Made by a program: the position numbers and the translations under genes. Shown piece by piece: positions 20,777-39,887 of a stretch of DNA of 64,000 nt. This DNA comes from Candidatus Moanabacter tarae (lineage in GTDB: Bacteria > Verrucomicrobiota > Verrucomicrobiia > Opitutales > UBA2987): positions 924,211 through 988,210 of the forward strand of contig CP029803.1 in the NCBI GenBank assembly GCA_003226295.1, read 5' to 3'. The notes beneath the pieces are model-generated. The model was not told the DNA's origin, searched no databases, and was given only the letters and a program-made list of their open reading frames with translations. Positions within the stretch are counted from its first letter, which is position 1, and every line of letters starts with the position of its first letter.

Positions 20777-21036
20777 TCCTGAATTAGATTAAGCGGAAAG
20801 AAGGGGGACAACTTTAAATTATAACCGATGTGTTGAATGGGTACTTGGAAACTGAGGCTAGCCAAAACCCAAAGATGGGGCAGGGCGCTGTTCTAGCATT
20901 TTGTGTTTCACTTAATTTATAGAATAAAGCTATTAGAAGTTATAGTTTAACAACTATTAGATTATCTTGGACAACAAAACGCTGTTAAATTGACACCTAG
21001 AGAAAGTTCTGGGAGATATTAAATTAATATTTGGAC

Positions 21037-21531
21037 ATGGATAATTTCACATCACGGGAATTTAGGGACGCACTAGGAAAATATGCAACGGGCGTTACTG
21101 TTGTGACCGCCATCCAGGGGGAAAAGGAGAAAATCGGTATTACGATAAACTCATTCAGTTCAGTTTCTCTAGAACCACCCTTAATACTGTATTCTCTAGC
21201 AAAAACCTATCATCACTTCGAGGCCTTATCTTCAGTTAAGAATTTCGCGGTAAATGTTTTGGACGCAAATCAACGTCAGATTTCACAAACCTTTGCCCAT
21301 GCTGAAGAGAATCAATGGAATAATGTAGGCTTCGAAATTAGTTCTCGTAAGAATTTAATTCTGAAACCGAATCTAGCTGTATTCGAGTGTGTACCCTTCA
21401 GTCAAACAGATGGCGGAGATCATCTAGTTATTCTTGGTCGAGTAGTAGGGATATTTTCAGAAGAAGGAGATAATCCTCTCCTCTATTTCGGTGGGAAATA
21501 CCGAAGCATCAGCCCTATAGATGCTCAATAG
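21037..21531 (+). CDS. Flavin reductase-like domain protein (DIM6/NTAB family)
   Basis: A 164-residue protein of the FMN-binding flavin reductase family. Visible hallmarks are DALGKYATGVTVVTA at the N-terminus, GITINSFSSVSLEPPL near 36-51 (FMN-binding region), NFAVNVLD near 70-77, and the late GDHLVILGRVVG motif. Members supply reduced flavin to two-component monooxygenases or act as flavoenzymes themselves. No partner monooxygenase is seen next to it. I use ATG 21037; an in-frame TTG at 21031 is also possible, with a distant GGGAGA upstream. It is divergent from the peptide transporter operon. Confidence 0.88.
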   Translation: MDNFTSREFRDALGKYATGVTVVTAIQGEKEKIGITINSFSSVSLEPPLILYSLAKTYHHFEALSSVKNFAVNVLDANQRQISQTFAHAEENQWNNVGFEISSRKNLILKPNLAVFECVPFSQTDGGDHLVILGRVVGIFSEEGDNPLLYFGGKYRSISPIDAQ

Positions 21532-21586
21532 GTAATACTAAGTTAAAAGGCATTGGCCTATTCCTACGTCCAAACAAGATGGCTTG

Positions 21587-21712
21587 TTAATCTTTCCAAA
21601 GGATATAAACCAGCTGAAAGAGTATATAAGAAAGGATAGCAATGACGATCCAGATCATCGGCCAAGGCTTCGGATTATGATTTTTAGCAGGAGAGCCTTT
21701 ATCAAAATTCAT
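21587..21712 (-). CDS. Small membrane protein, 41 residues (hypothetical)
   Basis: A short frame from ATG 21712 encodes 41 residues with a soluble N-terminus (MNFDKGSPAKNHNPKPW) and a single strongly hydrophobic helix (about residues 18-39) ending WKD. This is a sensible single-pass membrane peptide. The RBS is weak (AAGAAACG). No homologue is recognised. It lies alone between the flavin reductase gene and the candidate 6S RNA, on the opposite strand to both. Confidence 0.4.
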   Translation of the reverse strand: MNFDKGSPAKNHNPKPWPMIWIVIAILSYILFQLVYILWKD

Positions 21713-21857
21713 TTCGTTTCTTAAGACTGGATTTTTCCTTTGTTCAAGATGTTCGTTTGATAGTTGAGGAAATAATTATGTCATTCTAATTACTTTCAAT
21801 CCTTACTAATTATCCCGGTTAGGAATTGACTTCATGTCTCGTTGAAGTCAATAAAAG

Positions 21858-22040
21858 CGCTTCCTGCAGTGTACGAAGGATTAATAATACACTCTAATCC
21901 TGTTATTTCATATAGGGAGCTAGATCTGAGAGGTGGATGCCATGCCGTAAATCGGAAGGCAAATCCCTTTTAGAAGGCACCCACTTTTACCTAAAAGAGG
22001 TAAATAGAGTAACTTAGTTTCTCCGGCGCAGGCGGGAATT
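21858..22040 (+). ncRNA. ssrS: Candidate 6S RNA
   Basis: This non-coding stretch of about 185 nt carries features I associate with 6S RNA, the RNA polymerase holoenzyme regulator. It has a 5' CCTGCAGTGTACG segment, an ATTTCATA stretch as in the E. coli molecule, a paired centre (GTGGATGCC with GGCACCCAC, one mismatch) around a small apical hairpin, and a 3' GCAGGCGGGAA end that can pair with the 5' TTCCTGC. It is followed at once by a strong intrinsic terminator. The length is right for 6S. A covariance-model search has not been run, and both ends are approximate. Confidence 0.6.
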
Positions 22041-22041
22041 A

Positions 22042-22073
22042 GAAGCCGAGCTAAAGCTCGGCTTCGTTTTTTT
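22042..22073 (+). terminator. Strong intrinsic terminator after candidate 6S RNA
   Basis: A perfect 10-bp stem (GAAGCCGAGC at 22042-22051, GCTCGGCTTC at 22056-22065) with a TAAA loop is followed by GTTTTTTT on the plus strand. It would end a plus-strand transcript, and the only candidate just upstream is the non-coding region. It touches the lpxI stop codon on the other strand. Confidence 0.9.
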
Positions 22074-22920
22074 AAGAGAAACCATAAATGCAAATTCCCC
22101 ATTCCGATGCGAAATCTAAAACTTTTGATTTTTCAAGAATAATAGTTTTCCCAGCTTCAAGACAGGCAACATTGATCTTCGATTTGTGCATTACTTTAAG
22201 CGTAGTTATTCCAAAAACAGGAACATCAAAGCGAAAGTCCTGACAAGGCCCAGATGTCTTAATAAAAATCATCTTATCAGTTGTAAAATTTCCGGCCCGA
22301 CGAAGCATTTCATCGGTTCCTTCAAATGCCTCCACAGCCATCACAGTTCCCTTTCTAATTACTACCCCCTGCCCAATATTCATCTGGCTACACTTTTTTG
22401 CAATTTTGATACCGTGGGTGATATGATCTTCCATCATGATTGGAAGACGACCGACCATTAGACCTTCTTCTGTAATTTCTTGGTCAAGGAACGCACGTGC
22501 ATCTAGAACTTTTACTCCTTCATTTTCAATCTCTCTAGAGATAGCTCCAAAAAGGCTGTGGGCATTTGTTTGTTTTAGGGTCTTTAAGATCTTAAGAGCT
22601 CTAAGATCCGGGTGAAGTCCTCGGAATATCCGACGCGGGGTAATTTGCCCAACCATGATTGCATATCCCACCTGTGTTCTCCGTATTGAGCGAATGAGAC
22701 GGCCCAACTGGCCAACTTTTATTATATCCACCCTGTCTGACGGAAACTTAGAGATTAAATCATGAGAGGTTTCGCCCTCGAATCCTATAAGAAAAACCTT
22801 TATACCATGGCTTTGGATAGCCTCAAATGTTAGGCGAGGATAAACGTCCTTCCCGGCTATAATAGCGATCGATCGTTGCCGATCAAACGAAGAGGGAAGA
22901 AATTGTGAAAGCAAATTCAA
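22072..22920 (-). CDS. lpxI: UDP-2,3-diacylglucosamine pyrophosphatase LpxI
   Basis: The 282-residue protein matches LpxI (DUF1009), which hydrolyses UDP-2,3-diacylglucosamine to lipid X in lipid A synthesis on the inner-membrane cytosolic face. Conserved segments include IAIIAGKDVYP at the N-terminus, MVGQITP near 90-95, the KILKTLKQTNAHSLFGAI region, and the family hallmark GTVMAVEAFEGTDEM near 190. LpxI substitutes for LpxH in many non-enteric Gram-negatives. The start is TTG at 22920, overlapping the leuS stop by 4 bp, so the two are probably translationally coupled. Confidence 0.95.
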   Translation of the reverse strand: MNLLSQFLPSSFDRQRSIAIIAGKDVYPRLTFEAIQSHGIKVFLIGFEGETSHDLISKFPSDRVDIIKVGQLGRLIRSIRRTQVGYAIMVGQITPRRIFRGLHPDLRALKILKTLKQTNAHSLFGAISREIENEGVKVLDARAFLDQEITEEGLMVGRLPIMMEDHITHGIKIAKKCSQMNIGQGVVIRKGTVMAVEAFEGTDEMLRRAGNFTTDKMIFIKTSGPCQDFRFDVPVFGITTLKVMHKSKINVACLEAGKTIILEKSKVLDFASEWGICIYGFS

Positions 22921-39814: not shown

Positions 39815-39887
39815 GGGTCGATAGCTCAATCGGTAGAGCAGTGGCCTTTTAAGCCATTGGTTCTGGGTTCGAGTCCCAGTCGACCCA
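39815..39887 (+). tRNA. tRNA-Lys (UUU anticodon)
   Basis: A 73-nt cloverleaf: acceptor GGGTCGA (39815-39821) pairs with TCGACCC (39880-39886), discriminator A. The D-arm region is AGCTCAATCGGTAGAGC, the anticodon loop CTTTTAA with anticodon TTT, and the T-arm CTGGGTTCGAGTCCCAG. The 3' CCA is not encoded. TTT decodes AAA/AAG lysine. Confidence 0.98.

Follow-up and report, generated by a model that had tools for sequence, protein, structure and literature searches.

6S RNA (SsrS; Rfam family RF00013) is a widespread small RNA. It mimics an open promoter and sequesters RNA polymerase that carries the housekeeping sigma factor, until a short product RNA made on it sets it free (PMC8876501). Free 6S-1 RNA of Bacillus subtilis can fold a small hairpin within its 3′ central bubble (PMC8876501). 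Another RNA of this kind, Ms1, is likewise 6S-like and polymerase-associated, but its binding partner is core polymerase lacking the primary sigma factor, and it has been described from Actinobacteria (PMC9130861). A literature search of limited scope brought up nothing published about verrucomicrobial 6S RNA. The window analysed here, a stretch of 64,000 nt from an Opitutales bacterium, almost certainly contains the single 6S RNA (ssrS) gene of that organism, which lies on the + strand and extends from a −35 box at 21826–21831 to an end at the terminator at 22042–22073 (Table 1). Like SsrS it combines a full-length match to the family model with a closing stem, a central bubble, an apical stem with a conserved GCCGUAAAUCGGAAGGC end, the CACCCAC motif and a single gene copy, and Rfam scans gave no match to the Ms1 family at this locus. 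Its setting differs: ssrS of E. coli lies at zapA–fau, whereas the host gene stands beside lpxI, with leuS beyond.

Identity and fold of the RNA

Two matches exceeded their thresholds when the window was scanned against all Rfam families: one is a tRNA at 39815, the other 6S RNA at 21858–22042 (+). The 6S match covers model positions 1–187 of 187 and scores 56.4 bits, where the gathering score is 46.4 (E-value 1.6e-8 for the window). The host genome, a single contig of 2.63 Mb, has no other 6S match. An RF00013 search was the test that the initial annotation, which had proposed a candidate 6S RNA in a non-coding stretch of about 185 nt, had itself asked for, and the full-length match above the curated threshold bears the proposal out, as do covariation and homologues in 46 of 52 genomes (the host's own and relatives from its order), the score passing the cut-off in 42 of the 46. 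The motifs listed in that annotation are in place: CCTGCAGTGT at 21863–21872, ATTTCATA, GGCACCCAC at 21976–21984 and GCAGG at 22028–22032. The RNA is non-coding, with no + strand ORF of at least 60 aa inside it, and is flanked by a conserved −35 box and a terminator.

Table 1. Features of the 6S RNA locus, numbered from the first position of the window.
Feature	Position	Strand	Description and basis
Perfect 10-bp inverted repeat, ATTGACTTCA N8 TGAAGTCAAT	21825–21852		Overlies the promoter
−35 box (TTGACT) of the 6S promoter	21826–21831	+	TTGAC recurrent in relatives
Probable −10 region (CAATAA or AATAAA)	21849–21855	+	Spacer of 17–18 nt from the −35 box; weak consensus match
6S RNA (ssrS)	21858–22042	+	185 nt; exact ends subject to processing; RF00013 match and covariation
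ATTTCATA of the 5′ central bubble	21905–21912	+	Rfam alignment
Local hairpin UUUACCU/AGGUAAA in the 3′ central bubble	21986–22004	+	Possible fold
Intrinsic terminator	22042–22073	+	10-bp stem, 4-nt loop, T-run

A score of 56.4 bits is moderate, and most relatives score higher. One reading of this moderate score is that the locus encodes a different structured small RNA that merely resembles 6S, and weak matches of other families, made via the terminator stem, point the same way. These matches (MicC, AbsR28, AaHKsRNA41, STnc430, SorY and others) all fall far below their own gathering scores, however, and are driven mainly by that stem; even at permissive settings, an all-Rfam scan of the locus ranked 6S first and brought no other family near its own threshold. 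The compelling match to another RNA family that the initial annotation had named as fatal to its proposal is absent from these scans. Full-length coverage of the model and covariation fit 6S in particular, and we consider a look-alike very improbable. A score below that of most relatives might also be taken as the mark of a pseudogene decaying in the host species, but the −35 box, the conserved loop motifs, the fold and the terminator are all intact, and we give decay the least credence of all. On comparative evidence, the 6S RNA at this locus is an expected, ordinary gene that is well supported by its relatives. The analysis confirms it as a standard gene of Opitutales, and the host locus yields a promoter, a terminator and a likely start of the product RNA; the understanding of 6S RNA itself is unchanged.

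The 185-nt RNA is more stable than each of 200 dinucleotide shuffles (200/200; z −3.4), and z falls to −4.4 once the terminator is included. The consensus fold was counted on an alignment of the window RNA with 24 relatives (n = 25), in which 91.1% of the pair cells of the shared 6S fold are standard. Double-sided changes occupy 142 cells, versus 46.3 ± 7.5 in shuffles and 34–52 in slid structures, and 0 of 500 shuffles reached the observed covariation on any of five measures. Such changes affect 21 of the 37 pairs of the consensus fold, and are found in the closing stem, the bubble-side helix (columns 70–73 with 134–137) and the apical stem. Covariation therefore supports the predicted rod fold, with its closing stem, central bubble and apical stem. 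The minimum-energy fold departs from the family model in one respect: a 5′-side hairpin, GGAUUA/UAAUCC, replaces the downstream helix of the model. This hairpin, absent from same-family relatives, counts against the 6S reading.

The closing pairing, CCUGC (21863–21867) with GCGGG (22032–22036), is the same whether read from the family alignment or from the minimum-energy fold. The partner first proposed for the 5′ CCTGC was GCAGG, and that assignment has to be corrected. The U-G wobble of this stem is present in 22 of the 25 sequences. In the 3′ central bubble, where B. subtilis 6S-1 RNA can form its small hairpin, a local hairpin is also possible in the host RNA, and hairpins of other sequence can form there in most relatives, with a mean stem of 5.9 bp versus 4.6 bp in shuffles.

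Promoter, inverted repeat and terminator

Upstream regions from 31 genomes, the window included, were aligned on the 6S start. TTGAC is found 32–36 nt before the start in 14 of the 31, the window copy lying at −32, where chance would provide about 0.15 (an estimate, 31 × 5 positions × 4^−5). Recurring at this distance far above chance, the motif is therefore assigned as the −35 box. From its spacing, 21849–21855 is the probable −10 region, and the distance between the two elements is identical in the same-family relatives L006, L018 and L029.

The same DNA carries a perfect inverted repeat, with arms at 21825–21834 and 21843–21852; the left arm contains the TTGAC of the −35 box, and the right one reaches as far as the probable −10 region. 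This had been described as a separate perfect 10-bp hairpin immediately upstream, and the repeat does exist, but it is promoter DNA outside the RNA; a role as an RNA hairpin of the 6S gene can be dismissed, since the repeat covers the promoter and the 6S RNA begins downstream of it. It could instead be an operator, at which a regulator bound across the −35 and −10 elements would control transcription of the host 6S gene, an addition to the 6S reading rather than a replacement for it. The exact fit of a perfect dyad to the promoter suggests as much, as does the excess of such repeats in the window (eight perfect 10-bp repeats with loops of 3–20 nt, versus 1.25 expected under a first-order Markov model). 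Conservation and genomic distribution argue otherwise. In 30 relatives, the 60 nt upstream of 6S never contain an inverted repeat of at least 8 bp, which excludes a conserved element, and the left arm is already accounted for by the −35 box. Nor did a search of the whole host genome yield a convincing second copy of the kind that a regulon site would have: allowing up to 2 mismatches gives none, and allowing 3 gives 3 sites in all, close to the 2 obtained with a reversed-pattern control. Because it is unconserved in the 30 relatives and lacks a good second genomic copy, we read the dyad as probably either a chance palindrome in promoter DNA or a species-specific operator; taken by itself, control by a dedicated regulator seems unlikely. 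Were it true, such a regulator would replace or supplement growth-phase control of 6S production.

At the 3′ end of the RNA, the perfect 10-bp stem and T-run that had been noted are both present, the stem formed by 22042–22051 and 22056–22065 and followed by the tail GTTTTTTT. This is the only terminator-like site in 21500–22300 (shuffle mean 0.6). It had also been remarked that the terminator is explained by no ORF, a fair statement as far as the + strand goes; on the − strand, lpxI has a stop codon that abuts the T-run. Among relatives, the terminator scan was positive in 6 of 31, a count from a scan that overlooks A-rich stems with long loops, like the ones following the 6S RNAs of L006 and L029.

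Predicted mode of action and product RNA

By analogy with the family, the host RNA would fold into a rod whose central bubble imitates an open promoter, and under nutrient shortage it would capture the RNA polymerase holoenzyme containing the housekeeping sigma factor. A housekeeping-type sigma-70 factor is encoded in the host genome. When nutrients return, the polymerase would use the 5′ side of the bubble as template for a short product RNA, and 6S RNA would be released. The product RNA is predicted to start opposite U21904, giving 5′-AACAGGAUUAGAGUG..., because the shared AUUUCAUA was aligned with that of E. coli ssrS; the start on the E. coli RNA we take to be U44, of which U21904 is the equivalent. 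By this alignment the first nucleotide of the host product RNA is predicted to be A, whereas that of B. subtilis is G (PMC8876501).

Gene neighbourhood and distribution

Upstream of the 6S gene lies a flavin-reductase-like gene (21031–21531, +), and downstream lpxI (22072–22920, −), followed by leuS; 6S and its terminator occupy the convergent gap before lpxI. In 13 of the 52 Opitutales genomes (G000, G001, G002, G003, G011, G016, G025, G029, G030, G038, G043, G046 and G048), no more than 5 kb separates 6S from lpxI; the two are convergent in 11 of the 13, the exceptions being G011 and G025. For genomes of 2–5 Mb, such proximity would be expected by chance in well under one genome; its recurrence beyond chance therefore supports the orthology of the RNAs. 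Being recurrent, the lpxI neighbourhood could also guide the search for diverged 6S copies. In G046 there are two 6S copies and two lpxI copies, each 6S near an lpxI.

The closest LeuS proteins in named genomes come from Opitutae/Opitutales, at 55–56% identity, and assign the window to Verrucomicrobiota, in or near the order Opitutales. No 6S match above threshold lies near leuS in the named LeuS relatives L031–L033, L041, L090 and L037. The genomes without a 6S match are G008, G019, G020, G031, G035 and G045, four of the six being small (0.8–1.0 Mb); 6S may have been lost, or be very diverged, in reduced Opitutales.

Upstream, at 21590–21712 (−), lies an ORF of 41 aa (MNFDKGSPAKNHNPKPWPMIWIVIAILSYILFQLVYILWKD) that probably has a single membrane span. 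It matched nothing in Pfam or NCBIfam. Relatives of this ORF occur in 12 of the 52 genomes, the host's own included, and in G000, G001, G048 and G041 it is divergent from 6S and at most 200 nt upstream of it. They share a core of K-x-W/I-P-M-x-W-I/V followed by a hydrophobic stretch, and the ORF may encode a small, conserved membrane protein whose association with the 6S locus is old.
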